DNA from: Acarospora socialis | Lineage: Eukaryota; Ascomycota; Lecanoromycetes; Acarosporales; Acarosporaceae | NCBI GenBank assembly: GCA_025617375.2 | Contig: JAMYGW020000008.1 | Span: forward strand, 558,001-622,000 | DNA length: 64,000 bases | Direction of reading: 5' to 3' | Shown: positions 22,586 through 62,653 of the stretch, in pieces | Layout: each line of letters begins with the position of its first letter | Numbering within the stretch: the first letter of the stretch is position 1 | Position numbers and translations under genes: made by a program | The notes under the pieces: model-generated | What the model saw: only the letters and a program-made list of their open reading frames with translations | What the model was told of the DNA's origin: nothing | Databases searched by the model: none

Positions 22586-25015
22586 CCGCCCTAACACTAT
22601 GCCAACCACCTCGTAGGACAACCATATCGCTCCCGATCGGATACGGGGTATGTGTGTCTGAGGTTCTCATGACTCTCGTCGTGTCCACTCCTTCGTCCGG
22701 ATGCACGATGACGCTAGCCCGAATAGACGCGGTTCTGATCCTCGAACTCAATGGGAGCTGATACTTCAACACGCCTCTGACGATGAGTTCGAACGGATGT
22801 TTGATAACCTTCTCCCACCTCTCTGTACCGCCTTCTTCGGTCTCGTTGCCGGGGTTCGAAAGGCGGAGCTCGCCGACGGAGGACTGTGAGCGATGTCGCA
22901 AGGGAGAAGCTTCGAAGATGAGAGGCGAGTCGAACTCGAAGATGCGGCCTAGGAGCATGATCTGCGAATCTCCTTCTGGGTCCTCGATTGGATCGTTGCC
23001 TTCGTCGACGCCATTGGACGACGCGTGTTCCCTCCACCACTTGTTCGTCCCCACGTGCTTGCTCTTGGCAAAGATGTTGACGTCCAGGTCGCTAACCTGC
23101 ATGATCATCAGCTTTGGTCAACGATAGGGACGTGAAAGAGCATGCTCGGGATACTGACCTGGATGGTCATCAGGTTTGAATTGACCGCGTGGACGCGGAG
23201 ATCCAGCATGATCTCCGGTTCCGAAGCCAGGACGTTCCGGATGTCTTTGACGTAGACATCCCGTAGTGGGTTGCTGAAACCCACGAGTCCTCCCGCAATT
23301 GCCGAGAGCAGGCAAATTGCAAACACGGTGAGCACGATCCAGCCAACAACACGCGTCCACCACCCACGTGTTGCCGGCTGGACCGCGCTCACCGCGTACG
23401 GCCGCCGGCCGCCCCGGCTTCGGAACCGGACCGAGGTGAGGAGTGGGGTCCTCTCGTCGTCCGCCGCGTCGTCGTCCCGGGCAGCGAGGGGGAAAGGGGA
23501 CTCGCTGCCCAAAAGTGAAGGGTGGGCCCCTCCCCCACGTCCGCGTCCGTATCGCCCGATGTGGCGACGTGAGTCCGCCGGATTGGACTCGTACATGAAC
23601 GACTCGGCCGAGTCCGTAGACTCGGCCTCGTCGACCGCGCTCGCAACCTTTGCTTCGAAGATGTCTGCCTTCGATGATACTGGTTCCGTCGAACGGATTG
23701 TCAGCATAGATGGTTGTGGTGGAGGGGTAGGTAAAGACTCCAGGTCTTCGTTAGTAAGATAAAGAGAAGAAACACGTGCATGAGGGGGAGTAAGTCTTGT
23801 GACAAATAAATAGCTATGAGTAGATAATAACCCACATGTACCCGAAATAAATGACGGTGTCTTCCGTACACCCTTCTTCTTCTCTTTCTTCGGCCTTATA
23901 GTCTCTGTGCTTGGTTTTAGACGTAGACTGCTGCCGCTCTCGATTCTCCCTGATAGACCACGCTCACAGGCTCCTCCGCCGACAGCGACTTGTGGTATGG
24001 AGCTAACAGTTTCAGTTTCGACGATCATGTTCCGGAGAGATCCTTCACTTGCGGCTTTGCTTCGAGGTGACTTGAGATGTGTAAGAGACTTCCTTGGAAG
24101 GACTGCAGTGGTTCGTATGGAGTCGTTGGTGTTTCCTGGTTTTCGGCCGCGCTTGCTGCTGTGCGCCTTCGCATTTCCGCTCCTCTGGCCGCCACTTTCG
24201 CTACCGCTTTCAATATTAGTCCTTGTGGATTTTGTAAACGCGTCCTCCATGGGGTTATCGGTGCTTCGTTCTGGTCCAGTGTCGTTAGATGTCGTGATAG
24301 TTGGTGGTTCTTTGATCGTTCCAATTGCCGGTGTCGCGGGAAGACTGCTCTCTTGTACGGTTTCCAGTGTAGATCCTGTGCCGCTGACTCCTCGCCCGGG
24401 AGTCCGCATACCGGAACGTGGTGTTGTGTCGTCGCTATCTACGTCGGTTGTACTGGCTGAAACATCGGTGAAGGTAGTGGACGACGGCGAAGCGCGTTCG
24501 ATGACAAGTTTAGGCGTTTTGGCTCCTTGGTCTGACTTGCGCGGCGAGAAGACGGATGGTTTCATGGAGGTTGCTGAGGGTGGCGGCGACTTCAGTCTCG
24601 GTGATGTAGGCCAACGCGGCGGTTTATCTCCTGATACTCCTCTTCTATGGTTTTTCGCTCCTGGTGTATCGGTGGATGGTTCTGTTGCCGTAGGGGTCGG
24701 AATCTGAGGTTTACCCAACGCGGATAGAGCTCGTTGCACGGCGGCAGCTGAAGGAACCGATGGTACGTTAGACGACGAAGACCCACTTGGAGCTCTGTTG
24801 GGGCTATGATCTTGACTGTTTTTACGTGACGCCATGCCGGTTGAGGTCGACGAGATTCCTGTTTTCAATGACTTCTGTACAGGAGATGTGTCACGTGAAG
24901 GCTTGGGAGAGTTGATAGCGGAAGTAGGTTTTGATGATGAGTTTTGAGAGGCGGTCATCGACCTGTTCGTAGTAGACTGGCTCGAGGACGAGGGTTGCGT
25001 GAATGCGTCAGTCAT
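22569..25015 (-). CDS. VAC7: Vac7-family vacuolar protein, PtdIns(3,5)P2 regulator
   Basis: Exons at 23842-25015, 23159-23745 and 22569-23096 give about 762 residues. The N-terminal half is Ser/Thr/Pro-rich and disordered. Vac7 signatures follow: RNMIVETETVSSIPQVAVG, LKPSTETIRPKKEKKK, SSKADIFEAKVASAVDEA and HIGRYGR. One membrane span lies at about 525-548 (GWIVLTVFAICLLSAIAGG). Next comes the luminal domain with DVYVKDIRNVLASEPEIML, VSDLDVNIFAKSKHVG, EDPEGDSQIMLLGRIF and HPFELIVRGVLKYQLPLSSR. In yeast Vac7 sits on the vacuole membrane and activates the Fab1-Vac14-Fig4 complex. The first intron (96 bp, 23746-23841) is a multiple of three without a stop and has a TACTAAC branch site close to its acceptor, so retention would only insert 32 residues. 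I chose the Met at 25015 because the frame upstream enters a tandem minisatellite; a Met at 25174 in that repeat is the alternative. Confidence 0.93.
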
Positions 25016-25024
25016 GTTTGATTC

Positions 25025-25500
25025 TTGGCTGTCTGGTTGACTGGTAACGGATCGAGAGTGTTGATCGTTGGAGAAAGACAGTATATATGAAGAACGTCCG
25101 ACACTTCGCGGATGAGCTTGGCTCTCTGGTTGGCTGGAAACGGATTGAGAGTGTTGATCGTTAGAGAAAGACAATGATTACGAAGAACGTCCGACGCTCC
25201 GCAGGATGAGGCTTGACTTTCTGGTTTGGCTGGTAACGGATCGAGGATGTTGATCGTTGGAGAAAGACAATATATGACGAACGTCCGACGCTTCGCAGGA
25301 TGAGGCTTGACTTTCTAGTTTGGCTGGTAACGGATCAAGAATGTTGATCGTTGGAGAGAGACAATGTATATATGAAGAACGTCCGACGCTTCGCAGGATG
25401 AGGCTTGGCTTTCTGGTTTGGCTGGTAACGGATCGAGAATGTTGATCGTTGGAGAAAGACAATATATATGAAGAACGTCCGACGCTTCGTGTAATGAGAC
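25025..25500. repeat. Five-copy minisatellite at the 5' end of VAC7
   Basis: Five head-to-tail copies start near 25025, 25118, 25213, 25307 and 25405, with unit lengths of 93, 95, 94, 98 and 96 bp. Each contains TTGGCTGGTAACGGAT, GTTGATCGTTGGAGAAAGAC and AACGTCCGACGCTTCG with small differences. Unit lengths are mostly not multiples of three, so the array does not encode a stable peptide repeat. It lies immediately upstream of the preferred VAC7 start, in the leader or promoter. Confidence 0.9.
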
Positions 25501-25886
25501 TTGTAGAGAGTGAAAAGAAGAAGAGAAGAAACAGAAGAGAAATGCACTGTTTATATTTTGACCATAACACGCTAGAGCTGGTTCAACTCGGTTTGAGGAG
25601 GAAGGGACATCCCATCACCCACTTGGGCCCGTATGTGTGCAGGTGCGAAGCCGAAGTCTGGAAGTGTCCAACGAGAGCAGGTTCGACAGACTGCTAAGTT
25701 CTTTCCGATCATAAACAAAGGAAAACTCACATTCTTCCCTCGGATACCTTATTGCGTCACACCTCGAATGTTGGATGTCAGTTGTTGGACCAACTTCACA
25801 TCTCACGAGCCTGTTGTGGCACCAGATTAGATAAGCGGCTCAGCTTGTGGCTAGTGCGATATGCAGCCCGTTGCATCTACCTAAGG
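25501..25886. other. Flank between minisatellite and transposon nest
   Basis: Ordinary-composition DNA between the VAC7 repeat array and the left end of the Tc1/mariner element. No gene is seen. Confidence 0.5.
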
Positions 25887-26943
25887 TACAAAGTGGGGGA
25901 CAAAGTCTTCGGTCACCCATGCAATTAAGCGACACAACAAGTATCCAAACCCTACTAAATTTATATGTAATTAGCAACAGATCATAAAATTCAGTTAATA
26001 AGTGTAAATATATTATAGATTAGAATCTAAACTATATGACTGCATACTTTTTGAAATAATTAAAAGTCAGTGACTAATTCATGTCACTTCTGAATCTGCT
26101 GTAGCCTCATAGATATATTATTCACATATTTTTTTCAATTCTTCAGTTTTAATTGATCTCATTTTTTCTTAATTGTCTGTATGAAATCTGCATGTGTCTG
26201 AGAAGAATGTCATTAATGATAGATTTACTGCTTAAGAAATCATTACACATTTTCAATAAAGAATAAGTCAGAAAAGCTTGATGATCAGTTAAAAAAATGA
26301 AGACTCAGTTCTTTCTTTCATTTTTAAAAACTCTTTACATGTTTTGTTTCATGAACTGAGACATTATTTTTCTGAAATAGTTCATCAATATTTTATTCAA
26401 GCTGTTCTGCAAATGCAGATCTCACAATAATTTTTAAAATCTGTGTTTTGTAATTTTTCATTGTAATTTCTTCTCTCTTTTCATGTTTTTTCAAAAACAT
26501 CAAAGAAGACTTTTAATTATAATCAATGACATCTCATATCAATATGAAGATTAAATTTGACTTAAATACTGATTTGCAGCATGCTGAATGATAACATTCT
26601 TTCTTTGTACAAATTATTCATTTAATGATGTCTCTTGACATATCAAAAGAACACTTATCTGATCATATTATCTTTCTTTAAAAGTCTGATTTAACTTTGT
26701 CATATATTTTAGTAAAATGTCTTTGAATTTGATGATTTTCAGTCAAAAGAAATGACTTTTGACATGTCTTGCACTTATGATAATTCTTCTTTTCATATAT
26801 TCACTTTATAGTCTTCTTAAACATCTTCAATTCAGTTAATTGACTCAATTTCTTTCATTTCAGTCTTTGATCTTCATATGAGATTGTTGCTATTCAAATT
26901 AAATGTTGTCAATCTCATTTGTTGAGTTTTTGTAACTGTTCAG

Positions 26944-27260
26944 TGTTACAACCATACTCTAAAGAAGAATAACAGAATGAGAAATATGCTCAGAAAGTGT
27001 AACCTCAAGCATGAAACAACAAAACATCAGACATTTTCTTGTGAGCATGTGTCAGAAAGTACATCAGAACACTGAAATGCTGAGTGTGTCAGTGTGTCTG
27101 TTTCTATATAGTAGGGTTGTTTCTCTGATGAAAATGATCATGTTTAACTCATCTAGTTATGCAATACAAAGCTACTGTTTATCTAGAATCTTTGAATCTT
27201 TATATCAAGAAGCACAAAACTCTAGCTCTATAACTGAGGAATCTCAGTTGAGATGTAACA
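26944..27260 (+). repeat. 5' LTR of the Ty3/Gypsy element
   Basis: 317 bp beginning TGTTACAACC and ending in TAACA, repeated at 32592-32908. A TATA-like TATATAG lies near 27110. Confidence 0.92.
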
Positions 27261-30200
27261 CTTTGAACACCCTCACAATATAAAGAAATGTCATTCAAAG
27301 AATCAACCTCAGACAGTGCATTGCAGAGTATTGAACCAACAAAGATAGTCAACATCAATCACAAAGTACTCAAAGTCAAGACTTCAGAGAACTTTATGAG
27401 AGATCAATGAAATCTGAGACAATTTCTTGCTCAAATCAACCTGTATGTCAACTTCAATCAGAAGAAGTTTGAAAGCAACATCAACAGAGTCTTGTTCACA
27501 ACATTCTATATGAAGAACACAGCATTTGACTGAATTGAACTGCAGCTCAACAAGTTCATGATTAAGAGCATCTCTGATCAAGAGCAGAATACATCTTGCA
27601 TAGAAAACTGAATGCAGTTCAAGAAAGAGCTGAGAAGAATCTTTGAGGTAATTGATGAGAAATGTGCAGCAAAACAAAGAATTCACACATTATGACAAGA
27701 AGAATTTGCAGTCAAGTATGTGGCAGAGTTTCAATGAATTGCAGCACTTATGCAATGAAACCCAGATCAGTTAGCATCAGCTTACTATTGAGACTTGAAG
27801 AAATCTATCAAAGACAAAATTGCACAAAGTGACAGATCAGATGATCTGCAAGAACTTATCAACAAGACAATCATGATAGACAGTCATCAGTGAGAGCAAC
27901 AGATGAAAAGAAAGAACTACTGACATCAAGAGTGAACAGACTGAACTAATAGAGAAAATCAAAGATGACATTATCTGAATTTCATGAATCTCAATATGAT
28001 GAAATGAGATCAATCTTCAACACAGAGATCAGAAGAAGCACTGTGAGAAAAGAGATAATTCTCAAAGAAAAAGTCTCTGAGCAACCAAGAAATGCAGAAA
28101 TGTTACAACTGTGATATTACTGAACATCTTACACAGAATTGCAAAAGACTCAGAAGAGAAAGAAAGAAAGCTGTGATCACAACTAAGAAAGTAGTGCACA
28201 ACAATCTTAGCTGAACAGCTTGCTATGATGACATGTGTTGAACACACATGAGCAGCAAGAACAAAGTCAAATATTATTCAAAGAAGTCATGTCAGAAGCA
28301 AGAAACTTACAATATCACAGAATGATCTAGATCAGACAACACTGTAAAAAAAGAACTATGTGTTCTAGAGATTAAGATCAAAGAAACTGATACTTGTGAT
28401 ACTCAGATAGAAGAAGACTACAGTGATAGCATCTGAACTGCCTTGAATTTGAATGCAGATCAAGAGAAAATCAATTAATAAAAAGTCAACATAAGACTGA
28501 AGACAGCATATCAGCACTCAGAGAATCAACAACAAGCATTAAAGAAAGAAAAGCTTCAGTTTGAGACACAGAAGCTTGAACAAGAAATATAAGCTTGAAA
28601 ATGAAAAGCAGAATGCAAGAGTGCAGAAGAATGAGAGACATATGATCAGCTAAAGAAGCTGATGACAGCTGTTAAAGATGAATGTCTCAGCAGTGACAAC
28701 ACAGCAATGTCAAAATCTCTTGTACAGAAGACAATGAGTCACAAAATTGAGATACACTTATCTGAAGAATATATCATGCAGAATGAAGACAGATGAATCT
28801 TCAGTGAAGAATATATATCACTTGAATTTCTGCAAAGAGTAAGAGTCTTTGAGAGTCAGTTGCAGATGAAATATGATCAATATGAATCTCAACTACACCT
28901 GAAAAGATGCATTGAGTGACACAATCTAGAGTATGCAAACCTTATGATCAAAAGAAAACCCAGATGATTTCAAGAACTTTGAAGACAAACTGAACAATCA
29001 AGTGAGTCAAAAAATGAAGAGCTTTCTTGACAAGACTAGAGAACAAGAAGCTAGCAGTGTCTCAAAGACAAGACAATGATTACCAAATATGAATCAAGAT
29101 AATGATCAATGAACATCAGATCAGTGCATTAGTGAATTTTGAAGTGAATGATAACATTATGAATCAACAAATAGTTGATATGTTAAAATTAGTGACACAG
29201 TGAGTGCACTGTTCATCCAACATATGCATGACAAACAAAGTCATTGAAAGGATTGACAAGAAAATCTGTGTGAAAACCTCAATTCTTGAAAACTCACAAG
29301 AGATAACATTTAATGTTATGAGACAAATCAGATATGATGTGGTACTAGAGATGCTCTGGTTATGTGAAAAGAATTTAAAGATTGATTGAGTTACAAAGAA
29401 AATATGTGCAGTCAAGAACACATATGAGATCTCAGAACAATCAGAAATGAGCTTATCAGAACATAAGTCATGAGATCATAAAATACTGCTATTGAACAGA
29501 AAGCAATCTAAGTGAATGTCATTATACTCAATGAGCAAAGATCAACTCAAGAAAGTAAGAACTTACCTTGACAAGAATCTAAAGAGAGAATTCATTAAAT
29601 CATTCAAGTCATTGACAGAATACTCAATTCTGTTCATATCAAAGAAGAATGACAGAAAGCAACTATGTGTTGACTACAGACAACTCAATGAGATAACTCA
29701 TTGAGATAGTTATTTTCTATCATTGATAGAAGAGTTGCAAGATCAATTAGATAAGACTAAGTGATTCATGAGCTTAGATCTGAAAGATGCCTACTACTGA
29801 GTTAGAATGAAAAAGAATGAAGAATGAAAAACAGCATTTCAAACACAATATGAACACTACAAGTATACTGTCATGCTGTTTGAGTTGAAAAATGCATCAG
29901 TCATCTTTCAGAGATTGATCAATGACATATTGAGAGAATATCTCAATGATTTTGTGATCACATACCTTGATGATATCCTGATATATTCAGAAGATCTTGA
30001 AAAGCACTGAGAACACATGCACAAGATATTAGCAAGACTCAATGAGAGAGCTTTGTACATGAAAAAATCAAAAAGCAGATTCAAGATCAAGAAAGTTAAA
30101 TTTCTAGACTATGTGATTTGATCTGAACAGATCAAGAAGAATTCAAAAAAGATGAAAGCAGTCAGAAACTGATCAACATCAAAAAGAATCAAGGAAGTAC

Positions 30201-32591
30201 AGGTCTTTCTAGGATTGATGAACTATTATTGAAAGTTCATATCAAACTATGCAAGAATTGTGAAACCACTAACATGTTTGACACACAAGAGCAAAGAATA
30301 ACATTGAAATAAGAAGCAGAAGAATGCATTTCATGTATTAAAGAGAAGTCTTAGTGAAATGACACACCTCAGAATACTTAATTCAGCATGTGAGAAGACA
30401 CTGAAAACTGATGCTTCAGATTTCACAGTAAAAGCATGCTTATATCAGATTGAGAAGAAACAACAGAGACTCATAGCATATCAATTTAGAAAGTTATCAG
30501 AACTCAAGAAAAGATACAGAGAAGTCAATTCAGATTTACATGAATCATAAGAATCTGAGAAACTTTGCAATGACAAAACAACTCAACTGATGACAGATTC
30601 ATTGGGTGAAGCAATTAGCAGATTACAAATTTCAAATTCATTACAAAAGAAGTAATAAGAACAGCAGAACAGATGTCTTAAGCAGACAATCTGATCACAA
30701 AGACATACAAACAATACATGCTGAAATTCTGAGCAAAGAAAATAACAGAATTCTCATGAAGAGCTTAACAGCAATGTGCAAGATGAAGTCAGTTCTCTTG
30801 ATAGATGCAGAACTCATTGAGATGTGTCACTATGACAGAACTGATGAACACTTAGAAGTAAAGTACACTGAGAATCTAGTGCAGAGAAGACACAATGTTA
30901 GTGATCTCAGAAATTGAGTCATTAAGATGATCACTGTGTGTGATTCATGCTGAAGAAACAAGATCAATCAAGATAAACAATATGATGAAGTAACACAACT
31001 GAATGCATCAGGTGCACCATGAAAGTCAATTATCATGAACTTCATTATGAAGCTATCATCATCAAAAGACTCAGCATGAAAAATAAGATTCAACAGTATA
31101 TTGATCATAGTGAACAGGTTGATCAAGTACACAATGTTCATTTCATTTAAAGAAACTGTGACAGCACCAGTATTGGTGTACACCATACTGCAAGAATTGA
31201 TTAGCAATCATGAACTATCAAAGAAATTTATCACCAATAGAGACAAGCTGTTTACAAGCAAGTTCTGAGAAACACTTACAGCAGAACTCAGAATAAAGCA
31301 CAAAATGTCAATGACATATCACTCACAGATAGACAGACAAAGCAAATGAATGAATCAGACAATAAAAACATACTTAAGACACTATGTCAACAAAAATCAG
31401 AACAACTGAGTACAGCTGTTGTCAACAGCACAGTTTGTGTACAACAACACAAGAAACAAGATCACAGAAGAAACATCTTTCTATGTGAACTATGATTACA
31501 ACTCAGAGATATGATGAGATTCAAAAAGACATGAATCACAGAGTCAGAAAGCAATTTTGAACATCACTCAAATAAAAAAACTGCACCAAAACCTAGCAGA
31601 ACAGATCAAACAGCAGATGAAACAAACAACAGAGACAAAATCATTCAGAGAAGAAGAAAGAGTATATTTAAGAACAAATAATATATGAACAAAGAAGAGA
31701 AGCAAGAAGCTAGAAAACAAGAGCATTGAACTGTTCAAGATCATATGAAACATCAAGAAATTAAGCTACAAGCTAGACTTACTCAGAGAAATGAGAATAC
31801 ACTCAGTATTTCATGTGTTCATGCTACAGCATTGCAATCAGTTCATACCACTTCAAATCAATGAAATGTCTGTTGAGCCCAACAAAGAATATGAAGTTGA
31901 GAACATTCTAGAGAAGAGAATGATTAGTGAGAAAGTTCACTATCTCATAAAATGAAAAGAATATGATACATCAGAAAATACCTGAAAACTCAAGAAGAAT
32001 CTCAAGAACTGTGTGAGAACACTTTGATGTTTTAAGAAAAGAGATTGAGATTAGTTCAGAAGAATGAAGACATCATATTAACAAGTTGTGACAACAGTTG
32101 AGAATTTTCATTCTCTGTCCCATCATTATCACTTGCAAGCTCTTCAGCAAGACACTTTGCTTTTGTATCAATCTGAGTTTCAGACTGTTTCAAGGTTTTC
32201 TGCAATCTAGCAATTTTTGTCAAAAGTGCAGAAAGTTGCTCATTGAGAGTTCAAGAAAGCTCATTTTCAATTTTTGAGCAGACAGACTCAAGAAAGTCAA
32301 GAGAGAGACTGATGCAGAAATGATCTTGATGCACACACTTGACACACTTTACAGACTTAAAAAAGTCAGACAATGCTGAAGAATCAGAAGACATTGTGAT
32401 ACAAGAAAGACTGATGTCTAGACAACAATCACAAGAAACAAGTGCAGGATTTTCTTTGCAGAAAATGGTATCAGCAAGACAAAGTCAGTTTTTGAATTTC
32501 AGGTGCATCATCAGGATGTGATGAGCAGATGTTGATATATACTCTTGCTTAAATAGATCTAGAGAACTAGTGCCTGAGAGAGAGAAAATGA

Positions 32592-32908
32592 TGTTACAAC
32601 CATACTCTAAAGAAGAATAACAGAACAAGAAATACACTCAGAAAACATAATTCTGAGCATGAAATGATGAAACACCAAACATTTTCTTGTGAGCATGTGT
32701 CAGAAAGCACACCAGAACACTGAAATGCTGAGTGTGCCAGTGTGTCTGTTTCTATATAGTAGGGTTGTTTTTCTGATGAAAATGATTGTGTTTAACTCAT
32801 CTAGTTATGCAATACAAAGCTACTGTTTACCTAGAACCTTTGAACCTTTATATCAAGAAGCACAAAACCCTAGCTCTATAACTGAGGAATCTCAGTTGAG
32901 ACATAACA
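32592..32908 (+). repeat. 3' LTR of the Ty3/Gypsy element
   Basis: 317 bp, equal in length to the 5' LTR, with about 30 differences, all transitions by my count. It is preceded by a GAGAGAGAGAAAATGA purine tract. Confidence 0.92.
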
Positions 32909-33169
32909 TTCAGTTCATAAGAAATGAGACTGTCAATCTGAGAATTTTTGCATTCAATATTGAATAATGCTGTACAGAACATCAAAACAATATGCAGCAT
33001 CTTTAATTGATAGAACATCTTCTTTTATTAAGATTTTAATTCTAGTCTTTGTAGAGATTATTCATTTGTCTGTTTCATGGTTTCTTTTGAGCTCAAAATT
33101 CATGATTGTATGATGATTTACTAATAAAAAGCTATGAAGTGATCAAGAACTTTTGAACCTCACTTTGTA

Positions 33170-33860
33170 TCTTATCAGGCAAAGCAGGTGCACATGAACA
33201 GTTATATGACTGTTATATAACTGAACTCAATTCAGAACCATGATATGACTGCTGTATAATCATCAAAATATATAATAGTTATATCATGATTATTAGCAAA
33301 TAACTTGAATCTGATAAACACAATTGTCATGAAGTAATTGTTTCTATTCATATAACAATAGAACATTGACAACAATAGTAAGATTGCAAAACATAGACAA
33401 TATCACAATGCTTGTGACTTTCAAATGATCATAAAATGTTAGTGAATTTCAAAAATGCCAAGATCTAGACTCAGATGCTGTGTCATGTCATGAGCATCAA
33501 CATCACACTTAAAAAAATTGCAAATTCAGTCAATTCAGACAAATTCACTCATAGATTGATGGCCTTGAAGATTGCATGTGATAGAATTGTTGATAATTGA
33601 CAACTCTACCCTACCCATCTCATGGCCCTTGATCCACAAAGCTTAGTATGTGTAATGTATTATTTCAGTAAATTACATGAATCATTACATAGTCACAATG
33701 ATTCTGGCCAATCAAAATCATTAGAAACTCATGATATTGTGGTGTAGTGACTGTTTTCATATGGTTGGAAGTTGATATTTAAATTTAGGGCGTTTTCATA
33801 TGAAAAGCGTTTTAAGACCGTGATAACACGATTAATTGGTACCTGCTTTGCCCGGTAAGG
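33170..33860. mobile_element. Short non-autonomous element with inverted repeats abutting the Tc1/mariner end
   Basis: The left end TCTTATCAGGCAAAGCAGGT and the reverse complement of the right end, CCTTACCGGGCAAAGCAGGT, match over about 55 bp (about 39 of 55 identical), with a perfect 12-bp core GGCAAAGCAGGT. TA dinucleotides flank both ends (33168-33169, 33861-33862). The 691-bp interior is AT-rich with repeated TTATATGACTG-like motifs and no open frame. It may be a MITE or an internally deleted transposon. The left TA is shared with the right end of the Tc1/mariner element. Left-end differences are mostly transitions, while CpG survives only near the right end. Confidence 0.55.
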
Positions 33861-33862
33861 TA

Positions 33863-34368
33863 GAGGATGAGTTCAACCTTTTAGGTTAATGTATGTAGAG
33901 ATCCCTTGCTACTACTGAAGTAATAGAATGCAGACCATATATCTAGTCTCCAGATAACTTCATCACTTTTCTCCGTTCAGTCGCAGCAACATTGACCTGA
34001 ACCCAGTTTTGAAGCCGAACCGGGCGGTCGAGTTGCCGGCTGCGACAGTTAATTATCGCACTTACCTAGGTAGATCAGTACGAGTACAGGCCCAGCGGAA
34101 GCCGGGAAGAACGCGCATATATCCTAGGATGCCCAAAATGGTTCTTGCTTCATCTAACTAAGATTTCTAGTACCCGTATGATATCGGATGTACATGTAAT
34201 GGACGCATCTGAGTTGGCCAACGATTGCCATTGCTAACGTTCGTGGCATTGTCTCGAAAACCACACTGTCCCTATTCGCAGCCCTGTACTCCCAGATCGC
34301 ACATATAATACCGCTCATTCACCCTGACGAAGCCCTCGCTCATCGTTGTCTGGTCTCGAAACCCTGAC
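33863..34368. other. Right flank of the repeat nest, no gene seen
   Basis: Base composition and CpG return to normal here. No coding sequence is visible before the 3' end of the next minus-strand gene. Confidence 0.5.
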
Positions 34369-36530
34369 CTAAGTCCTACTATTATACTGTGCCCACCTCT
34401 TACGGTAATCTCGTTCAATCTCCCACGTCGCCCTCGGTCCCAGATGAATCAAGGGCGTTCTTTCCTCATCGAAGATCCTATCTCCCTCTTCACCGTCCAG
34501 CTTTATGTGTTGCGGACGGCCGCCGCTACAAGGGTCGCCCTGGGTCTCGTAGTGCGTCTGATGTTCTCCGTTGAGGAGGACGTAACGAAGGTATCTGATC
34601 CCACGGCAGAATGAGCGTGGCTTGCTCAGTTGTTGTCGGTAGCGGAGTAGGTCTAGAGGGTCTTTGCCTGGGCAAGACAGGAAAGTGATCTTTCGGAGAC
34701 GCGGATGCATGGGTACGAAGACGTCATTGAAGTTAAGCAAGAGCTCCTAAGGTGAGTTTGGTTAGGGGCTGTACAAGTCTTCTCGGCTTCCGTAGAGGAG
34801 TAAGAGGTTAGACTTACTAAATCTCTATACTTCAATGCCAGTGCAATCCGTTCGAGATTAGGAAGGGCATTGCTCAGGTGATGCAGATCTTGGCGACCGA
34901 TGTCATACATGTCCGCCGGGAAATGGAGACTTCTGAGCTTGGGGAGATTGCTCAGGGCGACCTCAATCAGTCGTCTCAGGCCCTGATGCTGAGCCTCCCC
35001 GGAGTCGATGATTCCCGTTTGATACCACAGACTCATACCTTCACCTAGGCTCTGGACGCCGAGCAATTGCCGATCCGGAAGCGGCTTTGAGAAGGTCAAG
35101 GTTTCAAGATCCTTCTGGTCACTAAGGAACTCGACTAGCTGTGGAGTGAGGAGATCGTAGTCGATGTCTCTCAAGCCTCGAAGGCTGACGGAGCCCTTCA
35201 AGTCATCCCAAAGTTCTGCATGGGCCTTGCAATTGGGCAGGCGGAGATCCTTGATGTATTCCTTGCTAAAGATGACTTGGAAAGCATCGGACGGAATACC
35301 GAAATGGTGGAGCTCAAGAGATTCAAGCCGAAACACGGTGTCCCATTGCAGTGGATCGGTTGGATCCCTATAGGCAAGAGGAAGTCTCGCCCTACTGCAG
35401 CCCTCTTCCACAGGAGTCGGGAAGAGCGCCCTGAAGTATTTGTCCATCTCTTCTGGCTCTGGCGGAACGAAGTCATCCGTGTCCCAGCTGTAAGGGCGGC
35501 TATGGGCGGTCAGTTCGACCACCAGTGAGCGCAGACTTAGAGCGCGGGCTGCGAGCCCGTCAGCGAGCTGCGGGAAAGCTTCGACGAATTCGTCCAAGAT
35601 AGGCAGGCTTAGAATTGTGAGAGATGCCAGATTCTTATATCTCTTCAGCTCCACTGCGAGCATTCCGCAATCCTCCGGATATCTGACTGGAACGGTGAGC
35701 GAGCTTAGAGAGTATGGGAGCTTCATAAGCTGGTTCATGTCCGCAAGTCGCCAGTCAACATCGGCCCTGTATTCGTGCAGGTTGACCAGATCGCTGAGGC
35801 TGCCTAGCTGTAGTCTCCACGGATCTGGAGGCTGAACATCCTGATCCCAGAGCTGACCCCAAGCGGTGGAGGGGTAAGTCCCCGAGAATCGAAAGAGCGA
35901 CGTGTACCTGCTGTGCTTCTTCACTTGGCAACTGAGGTATTTGGCGCGTCCCACAAGCCGGTCGTCAAGCCAGCCTCTGGCCATAGCTTCTGCAGCATCC
36001 CAAGACATCCTTTCTAAGGGGACATCTCCGAGGGAGGGTGCCATACCATGGCGTCTTGACTTGATAGGGTCGTCGCTGAAAAATAGATGTATTGTCTGGT
36101 AGGCTTTCTTAATGAGCACGTCGTAATGGGCCTTGGAAGTGCAGGCTAGATTGACCAGATCACGGGTGTCGGTAATCTAAGTATGTCAGCCATTGTCAAT
36201 GTCGTCGTAGTTAAATGAAAAAGGTTAGGAATGAGTGATGGTGGTGTGACTTTGCGATGATAGCCGCAGGACCGTGAACATGACAATGAGGTAGAGAATA
36301 AAACGGTAAAGTTCGGATATGCTTACCTGATCTGCAATGAGCAGAGAGAACCATACTGTGCTCGACATGCTGGACAGCGAAGCTTTTCGGTCCTTTGAAA
36401 ACCATGCTCCTGGCTTCCATACTAGTGATCCGGGCTGCCTCGATTGGGTCATTGACAGGTTATCGTCTGACGTCTCAATACGCCAAGATGGCATATTTTC
36501 TCCGATTGTCTTTCCATCGGATCCAGCCAT
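34369..36530 (-). CDS. F-box/LRR-like protein of unknown substrate
   Basis: Three exons at 36327-36530, 34818-36176 and 34369-34746 give about 646 residues. Introns of 149 and 71 bp have GTAAGC/GTAAGT donors. The short stretch across the first junction, ITDTRDLVNLACTSKAHYDVL, resembles the second half of an F-box. The rest alternates leucine-rich strands and helices (LRSLVVELT, LESLELHHFGI, LRDIDYDLL, LETLTFSKPL, LRRLIEVAL, LRSLHFPADM), like degenerate leucine-rich repeats. If it is an F-box protein it would recruit a target to an SCF ubiquitin ligase. The first exon (MAGSDGKT) lacks the usual LPxEL start of an F-box, so the call is tentative. It is the first gene to the right of the transposon nest. 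Confidence 0.7.
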
Positions 36531-53378: not shown

Positions 53379-55516
53379 GTTGCAAGTCCTGCCGGGCTTT
53401 GACTTAAATGACTCCTTGGAGGGATTCTGAATTGTTTAGAAATCAAAAGAAAACTTTGTGAAAACGAAACAGTAATACCGATCTATAATTGACAATAAGC
53501 ACTGTGGAGAGAAGCGATAGCCTAAATTTGCAGACAACGAGCCCTATCTCTGCAGAGAGATGGAACTGCTGCAGATCATGTGGCTCTCGGGAGTTTAAGC
53601 CATCCATGCAGCGGCGTGTTGCACATTACCGTCGGTTGAATGTACCCTAGAATATGGACGAATAATGCCAGAAGCAAACCTGATAACCAAGAATCCAAAG
53701 TTGAAGAGATGGCATTCACCCTCTCGAGATCTGAGACTGACTTACTCCGTACCTAAATCCTACGGAAGAAGGGGGATTGTTTCGAGCTTACTTGACTCAA
53801 GAGAACCATGAAGCCAAGCTGGGATGGAGGCTCTCCCATCCGGATCGTCCACAAAGCACAATGCAACGGACCTTCACGAAGTCCGTACTGGATCTCCAGG
53901 TGGGATAACAGGCTCAAATCGGTTTTGGGCCCACAAATCTCGACATTCAACTAGGCATAGCCACCAATACTAACCTCAGTGCCATAGCATGATCGAAGCT
54001 TCTTGATTTCTGCATCGTACCAAGCCTCCAGCAACATGCCCTAACTCGTCCTCAGCCACGATCCACTGCTGCGTGACTACCATTGCGCAGTCAGTTCAAT
54101 ATTCGAATCTCCCTTCCCTTTCGCTGCCTATTCATTAACTAGGTGCTTCAGGTGGTCCTGTGGGCTGCCGTACTTAGCCGAGGACGGCTCGGAACAACCC
54201 TCGGGAGCTGGAACACGCTAGGGGACTGTGTCAAGGTAGAGTTTCCGAGTCGCGACTTCTGGTACACGTCAACCCCCCTCTGACTGACTGCCTCACGGAT
54301 CATTAGCCAGGTAGCTCTGGCTTGATGCTTGGGCTCTATATTAGCAGTTGGAATGTGCGCCCTCGGCCGTGGATTCTTTAATATCCTTTCGCTGCTCTTT
54401 GAGTATAACGCGGCTGTCAAGTCAATTGATATATTGCCCATGCGGTGATGGGTTAAATCTTGGCATTGGAGTTTAGAGGGTTGCTCTTTCTTTCCAGTGT
54501 GCGCCATGACTCGTTCTCTCCTCTTTGCTAAGTACGACGCTGACGGACTGATCTTAGGTATTTAGCACTTGCTGTCAAGTTCCTTTGCATTGTTCATCGG
54601 ACCTGCACTTTGGATGTATCTTATTGCTATTAGCCCTTCGAATCAGTATATCTGGCTTGGGCCACTGCTACATGCTCTCTCAGCTAATTCCCATGAAGCT
54701 CCACTTTGTTGGCACTCAAGAGTTATAGGAAAGCACAAATGGCACCTCGACGGGCCAAGGACCTTGCAAGGAGTCCCGCGCGAAAGCGCCAGGGGTCCCA
54801 GATAGGAAGATGGTTCGATCATGTCGCGAGTATGTCGAAAACCTTCCTAATGTTATGCCTCTCTTCGGATATCTGTTGTTGACCCTGTGCTGCATTCCTG
54901 TACCGCCTTTGTGGAAGCAATACTAGATCTAGGGTTCAGAGCAAAAGTCACCCAAGCAGCGGGCTGCACTTTGACCCTAGCTGACACTACCTGGTGTTAA
55001 GTTCTGTCGTGAGGAGTTGGTGGTCCCGGCTATTCTGTTTTTGTGCGCTTTCGATTTTACCAACCTCCCGATTATCGCTCAAAATTCTGCTCTAACTCAC
55101 CACAACACTTTCACCTCTCGCAATCTCCCACATTGCAGCAATACCACTGCTCTAACACCGCTTCCTTTACATGGGGATTTTGCTCAGCACAGTTCAAGCT
55201 TCTTTGCCCACCCCGTGCTTAGCTTAAGCTTTGATTCGCGTCTGGTGGACTAGATTTGTGGATCGTCGGTTCGTCTTCGCGTCAGCTAATTCAATCTTCA
55301 ACGGCAGTACCCCCCTCGCGCAGTGCGAAAGGACTATCGAACCGCCCACAGCCAGGCTCCCCCAGTTGCTTTCAGGCACGTCAGCGTTCTGCTCAGCCAC
55401 GTGGAGATTCAACCCCAACGACAAAGGTTGCATCTACAGCATCCCCAACCAGCTTTGACCTTACCCATGATACAATTCACGCAATCCCCAGCACACTCGG
55501 TTGTTTAACTAACACG
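53379..55516. other. Long intergenic region upstream of DNMT5
   Basis: About 2.1 kb between divergent genes. No coding sequence is convincing. The DNMT5 frame stays open upstream to 55256, but that part reads as untranslated leader (Ser/Pro/Gln-rich). Confidence 0.45.
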
Positions 55517-58500
55517 ATGCGATCTCAACGAAAGAGCCCCGAAGCTCTTCCCAAGTCGTCAAACCCGGATTCTTGCGGCCGTGTCACTCGTTCTCAAACT
55601 GCTACCTTGCATAGTAGCAACGCAATAAGTCGGCCAAGTCTCCGTGGACCATTTTCTCTTTCCAGCCAGCGAGCAAGAGAAACATCCACGGCGACTTCAT
55701 ATTCGGAAAACTCGGCTACTTCGGACGTTGCTAGTTTGTCGAGTCGCACGTCCACCCTCGGATATGTTGACGAGTCTGGCACTGCATCACCCGATGACAA
55801 AGACGCGGATATGCAGGTCGAAAGCTCTTCGGAGTACTCAGAAACAAGCTTGCATGCTCACCCAAAACCTTCAGCAGCCAAGCGTAGAAAAGTTTTGCCA
55901 CTACCCAAGCCGGAAATAGTGGCAGAAGAGCCAAAGCCGGAAATGATGCCAGCAGAGCCAAAGCGGCCGGCACCGCCTAATATGCAGATCAAAACCAAGG
56001 ACGCGTGGAATTTCAAGAGCGGCGTAAACGAGAAGCTTCCCCCTATCAGCAACATTGTCGAGATCTTCGATGACCTTACAGGCAAGGCCATGGATCTAGG
56101 TCTCGGAAAAGCCATTCAACATCTCGGTTCTCGGAAGCTCAAGCTTGCAACGATGTGCTCCGGGACCGAGAGCCCTCTCCTAGCCCTACAGCTCATTAGC
56201 GAGAGTAAGTACAAGCACCCCAACATCCAAGGCATCGGAGTATCTCACATTGGATAGGTCTTAAGACGTACCACGGAATCAAGTTTGAGGTAGAACATCT
56301 GTTTAGTGCAGAGATAGTTCCATTCAAGCAGGCCTACATCGAGCGCAACTTCCATCCCAGTATTATCTTCAGGGACATTCGAGAGCTGGCTGGCAATAAT
56401 AAAGCGCAAGTTACCAGATAAAGTTGAAGCGTAAATCAGTGCTAATAGCTCATAGCTCGACGGCTTACGGGGCGGAAGTCCAGATACCATCAGATGTCGA
56501 CATTCTCGTCGCCGGATTCTCATGTGTCGACTTTTCCCGGCTCAACTCGTCAAGGCAGGCGCTCAGCAAGAAAGGAGAATCGGGCGACACGTTCCGCGCG
56601 GTTCTAAATTACGCTATGGAAAAGAGGCCAGCCCTGGTGGTTTTAGAGAACGTTCTTAACGCACCCTGGGATGAGATCGCGGAGTACTGGAACGAAGCAG
56701 CTGGCTACACTGCCATGTACGTCAAGGTAGACACCAAGCAATACTACATACCTCATACGCGCCAACGGGGCTATATGCTTTGCATCGATAAGCAGAGACT
56801 TAAGAGAAGCTCAGACAGCGTTGCTAAATGGGGCAAACTGATGGAAACCTTCCAGCGACCCGCAAGTTCCCCTGTCGAGGCGTTCCTGTTGTCTGAAGAC
56901 GATACACGGATGCATCTTGCACGAGAGGAAATGATAAAGAGCGCTACCGGTGACGAGAAATCAGGCCGTGACGTTGATTGGACCTTGTGTCAAGGCCGGC
57001 ATCAGAATTATCGAGCGGAGCATCATCTGGGCACCAAGAAACCTCTGACCGGATGGCAGCAAGGCGGATCAAGCAGTTTCCCTGACTATGCATGGATCGA
57101 CTGGAACAAGGCACAGACAGACCGAGTCAAGGATACCTGCGATTTGTCTTATTTGCGAAGCGCCAAGAGAGGATATGATCTGGAGTTCAAGACGTAAGTC
57201 TGAGTAAATTCTATGGGTTGACCTTCAAAGGCGGTGCTGATCCGTGATTATTAGTCGTTCTATTGAGCTTTCTCAGAACATTGATCGTTATCTTGACACC
57301 ACTCCACCGGGAATAACGAGCTGCATCACACCAACGGGACAACCCTACATTACGACTCGCGGTCGACCTCTCATAGGCTTGGAGTCGTTGGCCCTGCAAG
57401 GACTTCCAATCGACAGCCTTCTTCTAACACGAGAAACCACGAACCAGCTTCAAGACCTGGCTGGCAACGCCATGACATCGACCGTTGTTGGTGCCGCCAT
57501 TTTAAGTGCGCTTATTGTCGGCCACCCAGCGCTCAAAGGTGCAAAGGTCCGAGAAGTCTCCACCCAGCAGCAGATATCGAAGGGCAGTGGTGATGTTAGT
57601 AAACTCAAAGAGCTGCCCCTTCCACTTACCACTTACGAACGAACCTCAATTGCAACGTTGCTGCGTGATACAGAGAGAAGTGCACGGCTTTGCTACTGCG
57701 AAGGTCAAACTTCTTTAACATCGAGGCGGCTGCAACGGTGTACCGAGTGTTCTCATACGACGTGCAGGAAGTGTGGCGGCATTCCTAGCCATGTTTATCA
57801 CGACCTCGACCCGGAAACTGTCAATCTACGTATAGCACCACAGCACTTTCAAGAGCAGGTGAAGAAAATGTTGCCCATGAGAATAACACTTTCTGGTTTA
57901 GGCGTTCAACAAATGGATGAGATCCGAACCAGAGCAGTCACGAAAGTTAAAGAGGAGACCTGGAAACAATACATGAAAGCTATCATTCCCGCTCTTGGGG
58001 AAGAGCTTCGCTTCCATTCATTAAGACGCAATCACAAATGGACGATTCACTACCACGGCCCTGGTTCCAGACTTGAGCTGTTGCTGCAACCGCACGGAGT
58101 CGAATGGCGGCTTTTCGCTCAGATCCCGAAGCAAGAACCGGTTGACAGCACTCTCCGCAAGTTACTCCAGCACCCGTTCGCCCGTATGACACCAGCGGCA
58201 ACTGACCCCTTCAATGGTCGCTGGCAATTCCGTGTTCCTTCTACTACTAGGATCCCACTAGTGATCGAAGGGAAGGGTAGGTTGACACGGTCGTGGGAAA
58301 CTCGTATAGGTCTTCAAGACCTAGAATTCGCAGATAAGCAGGTGTGGACGGAGCTGCGTATTCAGGTAGACCAGCCATCTGCTACTACACGGGAATTGGA
58401 CATTTCTGGAGACTACAGATGGCTTCCGGACTGTGGCACAGCTTCTCGCAGCTTGCACAAGAGAATATCAGGGCATGATTCCTTGCCGATCTTCCTTTTC

Positions 58501-61500
58501 CTTGACCCAGAGCGCACCGGTGACTCTTCTAAAGACCAGTTTGTGTTCTCAACGGACATAAACCGCTTGGCATATGGCGATGTCCGATCCACTATTGCTC
58601 GTTTGGAATCTACTTGGCGGCCATCAGCACGGATTGGTCCACAGCACGTCAATTGCAGTACATTCGGAGAGTGGATAGACTGTCGATCAGTAGCTTTGAG
58701 ACCGTTTGCGAGCAGTAAGGCGACATTTGCAGTACCTACCGACGCCTTTCACATCGCCATAGCTAAAGGCACGCCTGGGACAGCGTTCTTGGCGAACGTC
58801 GCTAACAACAACTGCGCGGCAGCCGTCAATACTCTACTCCGTTGCAAGGTGTCGCTGAATAGTGGCAACGAGATCGGTTGGAAAAAAGGTGACTGGGTCG
58901 CCGTGGACCAGACCAACGAGCGGGCTCTGCTCGCCTCCTTTGCGTGGCTTACGGAGAAAGCTCGTGATCTCAACGGCTTCCCTACAAAATGGAGACCGTT
59001 GTATCTTCCTGCAAAGTTCCATCAATGTCAAGAGTGTGCGCCTAATCGTCCGGCGATCGCATGGAGGCTGGACGAACAAACGAAGCCCGCCAAAATTGTA
59101 CCTTACGAAGATCCGCGTGAAGCTGGTTTCTACGAACGTGCTATCAAGGCTCGTCCAGGTCCGTTTGTGACTCGAGTACGGATCAATGACGACAACATGG
59201 GCCTTCTTACTATTGGCTTGAATGTCTGCACCTTGGTCCATCGTGCTGTGGCCAACTTGTGCGGAGGTACTCCTTCAGATGAAGTCAAAGTATCGTGGCG
59301 CCTAGACACGAAATTCACATGGCAGCCGCAAAACTCTCTACCCCAGTTTACTTTCCCTAACAATAAGAAAGATGCACAGTCTGCACAGCCTCCACACTGG
59401 AAAGGTAATCTTCGCTCGGAGCAGCTGCGATCATTGTCCTGGATGGTAAGCCGAGAGGCCGCTGACGTAGAGCCTTTCATTGAGGAAGAGATTGAAGAGG
59501 CGATCATCCCACAAATGGGTTGGCGCGCGGAAGGCCGAGCGAGACGTCCTCGACAAATCCGAGGAGGCGTTTTGGCTGACCATGTGGGGTATGGGAAGAC
59601 CGCTATTACCTTGGGGCTCATTGATATGCAGTTTGGTGCGAACAACCGAGTGCTCCCAGCCCCTGGAAATGGTAAAATACCGATCAAAGCAACCTTGATA
59701 GTGGTGCCAGCACAACTCATCCCACAGTGGAAACGTGAGATCAAGAAGTTCCTAGGCGAAACGTACACAGTACTAGCGATTCAAACCCAGCAAAAATTTA
59801 GTAATTCTACTATACACGACTTCATTGGGGCCGACATTGTCATTGCGGCCTGGTCCATGTTCGACAATGATGCATATCTTGAGAAGCTTGCAGCATTCGC
59901 AGCCCTGCCAGAAGCGCCTTCGAGTGGTGGTCGGGCCTTTCAAGCGTGGTATCAGCGCGCTCTCAACCGTATGAGCAAGCATCTTGACACGCTAATCGCG
60001 CATGGAGCAAGTAGCCTGAAGGATTTGCTCGAAACAGAGCTTGCTGCAGCAGAGGAGGATGAAGAGTTACTGAAGTTTGTTCCTTCTAAACGCCTTCGAG
60101 GTACTGCTTATGCCTTAGCGCAGCAACGTAGACTAGAGGGGACAGATCCAAGTACCGGGAAAGGGCGCAAGCGTAAAGCAGAAGCTCTCGACGTCGATGA
60201 TAACGAACCCTTTTACGCGAAGGATGAGCCGGAAGATGACGGCCAGACTGACCAAGAGAATGACCTAAAAGCCAAGCCGAAAGCTAAAGATCAAGATTTC
60301 TTTGCTCTTAAGTCGAGCGCAGCAAAGGCGAACTGGGTCAAAGTCCGCTGTCCCCTCTTTCAAATGTTCGAGTTCAATCGTCTCGTTGTTGATGAATACA
60401 CGTATCTTGACGATAAGGACTTCACTCTCGTTACAACCTTGCAAGCCGATCATCGTTGGGTCCTTTCTGGAACGCCGCCGACCGACGACTTTGCCGACAT
60501 CAAGGTTATGGCTGGTTTCTTACAAATCGCTCTAGGTGTTGATGATGACGCCGCTGGTATCATGAAAGGCCGGAACATAAAGTCTATCCGCAAAGATCGT
60601 ACCAGTAAGTTCAACCCTGATACTATATCAGACGCTGCTGAAACGTCTCTAGCGGTTGAGCAGTTTCAGTCTTTCCGCCAGGTTCACTCACCAGATTGGC
60701 ATCTTAATCGGCATAAGATAGCACAAGTATTCTTGAATCAGTTCGCTCGAAGGGTATGTACGTTTCCGAAAGTGAAGCTGGACATTGCTCATTGACTGCA
60801 GAACAAGCCAGAAATTGGCGAAATACCGTGTCAAGAGGGTCTCGTCCCTATAAAACTACCAGCTGCGGAGAGGGCCAGCTATATGGAACTCAATCAGCAA
60901 CTCATGTCCCAGGACATGAAGATCTCGAGAGGTGGCGGAGCCAAAATCGATAGTGATCGCGCGAAACGCCTGAGGGAAATCATGGGCAGCAGCAAGAGCC
61001 CCGAGGAAGCTCTACTGAAACGATGTTCGCACTTTACACTCGAAGACCTTGGCGAGAATCGGGAGAATGCATCCCAGGATTGCGACCTGATTGTTCAGAC
61101 GCGTATGAGCCAGTACAAAGCGACTGTTGCGGAGCTCAAGGAAAACCTTAAACATGCCACTTGGCTGAAAGGCGAGTGTACGAGTGAGCATGAACACTTC
61201 ACAAAGTGGAAGCGTAGTGTCTCTACGAATGCATTCGGAGATCTCGAGACTCGAGATGTACTGATGAAGATAATCGAGACAGCTGAAAAGGAATACTCAA
61301 AGAAGCACGAGGATATCTTCTATAGGCAGCCGCCATCCCCTGAAGAGCTTGAAGCGATGAAGAAAAAGAAGGAAGCTGAGGAAGAAGGTAAGGAGGAATG
61401 TAAGAAGAAAGCTGGGAAGGCCGGGAAAGCTAAGAAGGCTCCAAAACCCCCCAAGGTAACCTCGAAAAAGAAGTCTGGAAAGCGAGGCGCGGCCAAAGCA

Positions 61501-62653
61501 GATTCGGACGTCGATGGCGATGCCTCTAGTGTCTCTCATGCGAGTGCCGCTGAAGTCGAGACGAAAGATACTCGACCGATTCGTCTGAGAACAGAGAAAG
61601 AGAAGGTCCAGGCATTGCGAACCTTGACTGGTCACCTACGAAACCTTGCCAAAGAGCTAGTATCACGGACTAGAGCACTTCGATTCTTCAAGGTTGTCCG
61701 CGCAGTCCAGCTCTGGCAGTCCAAGCCGCTGAGTAAGAGTTGCTGCAAGAAGCCTAAACTTCCCGCAGGTCGGGTAGTTTCACAAGCTCCCACGTGCTCA
61801 AGGTGCAAGAGCGTTGCTCAAGACCCTTCAGCTATCGCAATTCTTGGGCTATGCGGGCATACAGCGTGTGTCAGCTGTCTTGCCGCTCCTGAGCGTGGTG
61901 GTGAATGCGTCACGGTCGGCTGCGACGCGCCAGCTCATAGTTACCATATTCACAAAGCCATCGAGCTCGGTCAAGAAGATCAGGAAGCTCGTGTTGGTCG
62001 CCATGACGGCAAGAAGATGGAAGATGTCATGGACCTGATCAAGAACAAAATTCCGAAACAGGATCAAGTACTTATTTTCGTTCAGTTCAACGACCTCATG
62101 GACAAGGTTTCTGCGGCGCTGGACTACCATGGCGTCAAGCACTGGGCTCTTATGGAAAATTCTCGGACACTTGCATATAAACGCATGGAAGACTTTCAGA
62201 TCAACGACGGGCAAGACCAGAAGAAAGTACTTGTCCTGAACCTGGCAGATGAGTCTGCTGCTGGAGCGTAAGTACATCCTAGATCTTGCCCAGAAAGCGG
62301 ACATGCGGCTTTTACTGACACTTCCGGATACTTGTAGGAACCTAACGAATGCCAACCACGTCATCTTCCTGTCTCCCTTACTCGCCGATTCGCGGCAACA
62401 CTACGAATCTGCCATGGAACAGGCCATTGGTAGAGTTCTACGTTATGGTCAACTGAAGCCCGTACGGATCTACCGTTACTTGGCTTTGAAAACTATCGAC
62501 GTCGATATCATCCAAGGTCGAGCGCAGAAAAAGCTGGGACTAGTGGGCGGAAAATGGGGGCTTCACCAAGAGCGTGCAATATCCGAAGGTGAAAAGCAGG
62601 ATTGGGGTGGAGGCACCGTTTTGAATGCTCAGTATCTGAGTGATGAGGATTGA
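55517..62653 (+). CDS. DNMT5: DNMT5-type cytosine-5 DNA methyltransferase with SNF2 ATPase
   Basis: Six exons (55517-56204, 56258-56405, 56456-57193, 57255-60753, 60802-62267, 62338-62653) give 2,284 residues. The N-terminal 200 residues are disordered. The methyltransferase domain (about 205-610) has motif I MCSGTESP (213-220), catalytic Cys302 in GFSCVDFS, ENV near 343, QRG near 382, and the C-terminal GRPLIGLESLALQG and LAGNAM motifs. A Cys cluster (CYCEG, RCTECSHTTCRKCGG) follows near 671-700. The SNF2 module has Walker A HVGYGKT at 1301, DEYT at 1571 and SGTPP near 1597. A RING-like Cys/His domain (CSRCKS..CGHTACVSC) lies at about 2024-2060. The second lobe ends in QAIGRVLRYGQ near 2208. 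This order matches DNMT5, shown in Cryptococcus to be an ATP-dependent maintenance methylase for CpG. No chromodomain is visible at the N-terminus. Intron 2 appears to use a GC donor. Confidence 0.95.

Follow-up and report, generated by a model that had tools for sequence, protein, structure and literature searches.

We examined a window of 64,000 nucleotides from the Lecanoromycete Acarospora socialis (contig JAMYGW020000008.1, positions 558,001 to 622,000), in which a nest of repeats (positions 25932-33790 of the window) contains no CpG at all. To judge by its sequence, the nest comprises a dead Ty3/gypsy retrotransposon, the older Tc1/mariner-like element into which it inserted, and a third repeat piece. 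We conclude that the nest was very probably inactivated by C-to-T hypermutation that is directed at repeats, as in repeat-induced point mutation (RIP), and that targets C before G or C. The changes in these repeats are nearly all C>T or G>A, affect both strands, and are concentrated at CpG and CpC. Every CpG on which our reference copies agree was removed, and some copies have lost every CC and GG. The copies were struck separately, and the changes end at the edges of the repeats.

The CpG-free zone has exactly 0 CpG, while its base composition predicts 207. In contrast, GpC, which is made of the same bases, occurs 206 times (observed/expected ratio, or o/e, of 1.00). CC and GG are scarce as well (96 together, versus 414 expected). 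CpA and TpG are frequent (o/e of 1.58 and 1.63), and TpA has an o/e of 0.54. TpA/ApT is 0.56 in the zone versus 0.72-0.79 across the remaining window, and (CpA+TpG)/(ApC+GpT) is 1.71 versus 1.15-1.16. A first-pass annotation of the bare sequence had reported the absence of CpG, the abundance of CpA and TpG, the scarcity of GG and CC with a possible CpC component, and the presence of two elements, and all of these hold (with the third repeat piece in addition). Its estimate of 150-200 expected CpGs was of the right order, but the computed value lies above that range. We saw neither the low (CpA+TpG)/(ApC+GpT) nor the high TpA/ApT that it had named as signs to the contrary.

The zone ends sharply. 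The nearest CpGs outside it start at 25930 and 33791, and the flanking DNA is normal (CpG o/e of 1.06 in 25001-25931 and 1.01 in 33790-34700). Elsewhere in the window, the CpG o/e of 1-kb bins varies from about 0.6 to 1.3 and is around 0.9 in most of them. When we searched the genome for copies (31.1 Mb in 38 contigs), the borders of the zone turned out to be the borders of the repeat matches: on the left, copies begin at base 1 or 3 of the query, and on the right, they end at 876-878. Within this window, the loss of CpG is thus confined to repeated DNA. CpG is 0 in every part of the nest, and CC/GG is strongly reduced in the Tc1 and gypsy parts, with 4 of 34 expected in 25932-26943, 70 of 344 in 26944-32908, and 2 of 10 in 32909-33175. 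In 33176-33790, CpG is 0 of 15 expected and the depletion of CC/GG is only mild.

For the Tc1/mariner-like element, three CpG-rich copies served as references (L014/L028, L015/L029, and L016/L027, with L014, L015, and L016 on contigs C4, C29, and C26). We scored the 890 sites at which all three references share the same triplet. The window copy has 187 substitutions, of which 169 are C>T or G>A (106 and 63, respectively) and 18 are of other kinds. All 29 of the agreed CpGs are lost (16 became TG, 10 became CA, and 3 became TA). Sorted by the 3' base, C>T changes struck 88 of 104 cytosines in CpC, 28 of 51 in CpG, 31 of 115 in CpT, and 22 of 115 in CpA. That about half of the CpG cytosines changed amounts to saturation, because a single C change already destroys the CpG. 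Among CpC triplets, the changed fractions are 35/37 for CCA, 38/39 for CCT, 7/9 for CCG, and 14/26 for CCC; the low figure for CCC would be expected if the middle C often changed first. The 5' base has little influence at CpC (changed fraction of 0.73-0.95 over the four 5' bases). Ordinary change is small, with T>C or A>G at 5 of 505 sites and transversions at 13 of 890. Relative to transversions, the excess is about 130-fold at CpC and over 200-fold at CpG.

The bias is sharper in a younger family. We searched the genome for reverse transcriptases (RTs) with RVT_1 and scored the best 150 of 435 candidates, which gave about 150 matches. Among the matches listed, 23 are stop-free, with spans of 687-753 bp, and each of the shorter, gypsy-class matches has at least one stop. 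From match length and sequence, the longer class is probably LINE-like (long interspersed nuclear element). Stop-free LINE-like RTs cluster at C1:2.65-2.80 Mb, C14:11-85 kb, and C10:187-250 kb, with open frames of up to 1329 codons, which suggests recent LINE activity. Among 20 selected stretches, we compared three copies that are 96-97% alike: L078, which is stop-free, and L079 and L080, which have stops. From L078 to the two broken copies, C>T changes are found at 23/74 of CpC, 5/12 of CpG, 3/184 of CpT, and 1/262 of CpA. Together, this is 28/86 for CpG and CpC versus 4/446 for CpA and CpT (Fisher p about 2e-20; both comparisons use L078 as the reference, so they are not independent, and L078 is itself not ancestral). 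Counted in the opposite direction (C in L079 or L080, in that order, and T in L078), the changes are 4/30 and 2/24 for CpC, 0/2 and none for CpG, 3/96 and 3/93 for CpT, and 0/133 and 0/134 for CpA. Transversions number 4/750 in L079 and 0/750 in L080. The first-pass annotation had read the pattern as deamination that targets CpG and possibly CpC, which both comparisons bear out. In neither family are the C-to-T changes mostly CpA-to-TpA; the classical CpA preference of RIP is absent. Of the two causes offered in that annotation, the data favor a CpG-type variant of RIP and disfavor the passive decay of methylated CpG (see below).

The gypsy copies tell of the same kind of change. Over their 317 bp, the two long terminal repeats (LTRs) of the window element are separated by 30 transitions, with 0 transversions. 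We also compared a 1-kb RT fragment from 30 gypsy copies (the window copy and the 29 others that scored best with the mutated query). Transitions make up 59,854 of the 63,475 pairwise differences. A single CpG is left in all of the fragments taken together, and CC+GG ranges from 33 per copy down to 0, being wholly gone in 4 of the 30. Their GC content is 28-35%. At 53 sites, TG and CA alternate among the copies, which is the mark of a CpG that was changed on either strand. Neighboring sites are uncorrelated, and we found no strand tracts of a processive event at these 53 inferred CpG sites in the 30 copies. Stops in the RT frame are mostly TGA (279, versus 43 TAA and 18 TAG, counted in the window copy's frame with indels ignored). 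The RT match of the window copy itself has 5 TGA stops. We discarded an apparent effect of the 5' context at CpG, as judged from strand choice, because it is confounded: products such as TGG are targets too. The end point of the process can be seen in L077 (5,801 bases), which has 0 CpG and 136 GpC, and whose only CC (at 130) and GG (at 5728) lie at its margins. In L076 (C10:328500-334800), an insert of about 390 bp (about 2570-2960) has 21 CpG, and the rest of the 6.3-kb locus has none.

Several observations weigh against this explanation. First, in the Tc1 comparison, changes at CpA (19%) and CpT (27%) are far above T>C (1%), so these sites are not fully spared; they are weak targets. Second, counting from the least mutated gypsy copy gives 1017/4833 for CpA and 1003/4429 for CpT, with T>C at 1645/18960. 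We ascribe these counts to the TG/CA alternation, which would blur a tally of this kind. Third, the gypsy searches used a mutated query and scored the best 40 of 386-387 candidates, so the sample favors mutated copies. Fourth, some copies escape: the three CpG-rich Tc1 copies and the 23 stop-free RT matches are unhit or lightly hit. (The Tc1 copies are 91-93% alike over more than 1 kb and are still CpG-rich. They differ mainly by transitions, and C/T differences among them occur preferentially at CpC and CpG; from these alignments, they too seem to be lightly mutated.) Fifth, the third repeat piece retains 21 of 31 expected CC/GG.

The best of the alternatives is passive decay. The DNMT5 and DIM-2 enzymes would keep repeats methylated at CpG and at some CpC, and spontaneous deamination of 5-methylcytosine would erase those sites without any dedicated mutator. 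DNMT5-like and DIM-2-like enzymes are both encoded in this genome, the independence of sites and the lack of strand tracts fit, and repeat methylation is described for many fungi in PMC7862722. Nevertheless, we consider passive decay unlikely, for two reasons. The first is the rate. Relative to transversions, change at CpG and CpC is raised about 55-fold in L079 (11/43 versus 4/750) and over 100-fold in L080 (17/43 versus 0/750), besides the still larger excess in the Tc1 element. The decay of methyl-CpG elsewhere is raised about ten-fold. A rate of 55- to over 200-fold favors an active mutator. The second reason is the pattern. Passive decay predicts loss of CpG only, with a modest excess, whereas the strong CpC component, the borders at repeat edges, and the paucity of other substitutions all favor a RIP-like process. 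Also, in Cryptococcus, Dnmt5 maintains methylation at CG according to PMC7862722, and CpC is not its target.

Alternatively, an AID/APOBEC-type cytidine deaminase might edit the repeats, with no role for a methyltransferase. This would suit the saturation of C-to-T change in some copies, but we think it very improbable. Deaminases of this type read the 5' side of C. Here, the 3' neighbor decides and the 5' base is of minor effect at CpC, so a DNA methyltransferase fits better. Least credible of all is that the elements had few CpGs to begin with and have changed little since: the stop-free L078 is itself CpG-poor (3 CpG in 753 bases, o/e of 0.13), but the CpG-rich Tc1 copies align site by site with the window copy and contradict a CpG-poor ancestor of that element (which we therefore rejected), the gypsy copies alternate between TG and CA, and the paired LTRs, which were identical at insertion, have diverged.

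In the RIP-type hypermutation that we favor, the repeats would be recognized as repeats, and an enzyme of the cytosine-methyltransferase type, most likely RID-like, would attack C. The attacked C would then become T, probably during the sexual phase. PF00145 has four matches in the genome, in three genes, which are DNMT5-like, DIM-2-like, and RID-like. The DNMT5-like gene has DNA methylase and SNF2 parts and matches 7r76, which we take to be DNMT5 (the PDB title is "DNA repair protein Rad8"). It is a possible contributor to the mutation. This gene lies in the window, about 21 kb away from the nest, and its closeness is probably due to chance. The DIM-2-like gene, on C3, matches 9bap (670 bits), which is presumably DIM-2 (the PDB title is "DNA (cytosine-5-)-methyltransferase"); its BAH match is just under the cut-off. 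In the RID-like gene (L075, on C2), PF00145 extends across two exons, and PPCQ and other invariant columns are common to 8 homologues. The best named match of its protein is from Pleopsidium flavum (70% across a stretch of 221 residues). RPB2 of this genome likewise is 94% identical to that of Pleopsidium flavum and 93% to that of Lobaria immixta, which are both Lecanoromycetes. We label L075 as RID-like provisionally, since DIM-2 and DNMT5 were excluded and its architecture resembles that of RID. The RID-like protein seems the most likely agent of the C change, and we hold this with moderate confidence, because in Neurospora the RIP k-mer shift is not seen in crosses that lack rid1, as reported in PMC12543289.

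Among known systems, the closest is Coccidioides, where a review (PMC9409882, citing Neafsey et al. 2010) describes repeat-induced mutation especially at CpG and CpC, with gypsy elements foremost among the mutated repeats. (The CpG bias of Coccidioides is also mentioned in PMC4014442.) Coccidioides belongs to another fungal class, and the likeness is to the review's description, with which levels of saturation are not comparable. As in RIP of Neurospora crassa, we see C>T and G>A in repeats on both strands, in a genome with RID-like and DIM-2-like genes. However, RIP in Neurospora prefers CpA and raises TpA, as described in PMC12543289 and PMC2621366, and here CpA is hit the least and TpA/ApT is low. 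Classical, CpA-type RIP should yield TAA and TAG stops rather than TGA, as stated in PMC3828140, whereas TGA dominates in our gypsy copies. A 2025 survey (PMC12543289) presents the CpA preference as common to RIP-like defences.

CpG is a main target in several other fungi, as it is here. According to PMC2621366, changes in the MATE element of Aspergillus nidulans affect CpG first and then CpA, and changes in Ty1 of Microbotryum are CpG-biased, with TpCpG preferred. In Rhizoctonia solani AG8, PMC4014442 describes CpG-biased hypermutation that affects genes as well. In what these two papers say of the three species, CpC is not described as a target on par with CpG. Another lichen fungus, Cladonia rangiformis, resembles our case: mutated elements are sharply bounded against genes, homologues of RID and DIM-2 are present, and some copies are less mutated (PMC12542154). 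Most of the mutated elements there have 10-20% GC, as opposed to 28-35% here. The main text of that paper, which describes strong RIP in Cladonia, does not contain the words "CpG" and "dinucleotide". PMC7862722 covers the classes of methyltransferases in fungi and an increase of CA/TG in Uncinocarpus, and there is further background in PMC5872316, PMC6141143, PMC2432034, and PMC5555474. Our literature search, which left subscription papers largely uncovered, turned up no account of CpG/CpC-biased RIP from the Lecanoromycetes. What we describe is a new and nearly saturated instance of CpG/CpC-type RIP in a Lecanoromycete; it is not a new kind, given the precedent in Coccidioides.

These repeats would be missed by the usual scans. 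RIP is usually scored by the loss of CpA and the gain of TpA, and the composite RIP index of this zone is -1.15 despite heavy mutation. Because copies in this genome range from spared through partly mutated to saturated, the preference of the mutator can be measured. Should the bias come from the RID-like protein, a comparison with the RID of Neurospora would show what fixes the specificity of RIP.

The LINE-like fragment L078 (C1:2716587-2717339) is also poor in the targets. We redrew its synonymous codons 2000 times at its own third-position composition. It has 3 CpG versus 21.5 expected (the lowest of the 2000 draws had 10), and 16 avoidable CC/GG versus 30.8 expected (standard deviation of 4.8; the lowest draw had 15). 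The 22 CC/GG that Pro, Gly, and Trp codons make unavoidable are still present. In three host open reading frames (ORFs), the observed/expected ratios are 0.86-1.00 for CpG and 0.77-0.92 for avoidable CC/GG. The pattern in this one 753-bp fragment fits a LINE lineage that may persist without the target. A similar pattern would result if mutation alone had removed CpG while the protein stayed under constraint. More speculatively, a RIP-type defence might use a methyltransferase-type mutator that was respecified to CpG and CpC, with every remaining C before A or T as the end point, and the LINE lineage might escape it by purging avoidable targets. If the same poverty in CpG is true of more copies, then this LINE would be a transposon that adapted to its host's mutator.

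The class of each element follows from its parts (Table 1). For Ty3/gypsy, we found paired LTRs with TG...CA ends, a 5-bp target duplication, RT, and RNase H. For Tc1/mariner, the CpG-rich copy L016 (not the window copy) has a 347-amino-acid ORF on the minus strand with HTH_Tnp_Tc3_2 and DDE_3.

Table 1. The repeat nest and the DNMT5-like gene in the window.
Feature	Position	Strand	Remarks
CpG-free nest of three repeats	25932-33790	.	from counts of CpG, CC, and GG and edges of repeat matches
Tc1/mariner-like DNA transposon, first part	25932-26943	-	from genomic copies; the minus strand would encode the transposase
Target-site duplication TTCAG, left	26939-26943	.	
5' LTR of Ty3/gypsy	26944-27260	+	317 bp, TG...CA
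Ty3/gypsy internal part	27261-32591	+	many stops
RVT_1 in gypsy internal part	29828-30010		profile match
RT_RNaseH_2 in gypsy internal part	30308-30550		profile match
Tf2-1-like SH3 and chromodomain	31749-31955		weak matches, below their cut-offs
3' LTR of Ty3/gypsy	32592-32908	+	317 bp
Target-site duplication TTCAG, right	32909-32913	.	
Tc1/mariner-like element, second part	32909-33175	-	in the genome, copies L027-L029 lie next to L014-L016
Third repeat piece	about 33168-33790	.	query 256-878 matched on C6, C10, C1, C9, and others
DNMT5-like gene (DNA methylase and SNF2 parts)	55235-62653	+	7r76, 693 bits, residues 10-1171 of the central ORF

The window gypsy copy seemingly lacks about 60-70 bp that are present in other copies (in the part searched as 29500-31500, near query base 1017, between two match blocks).

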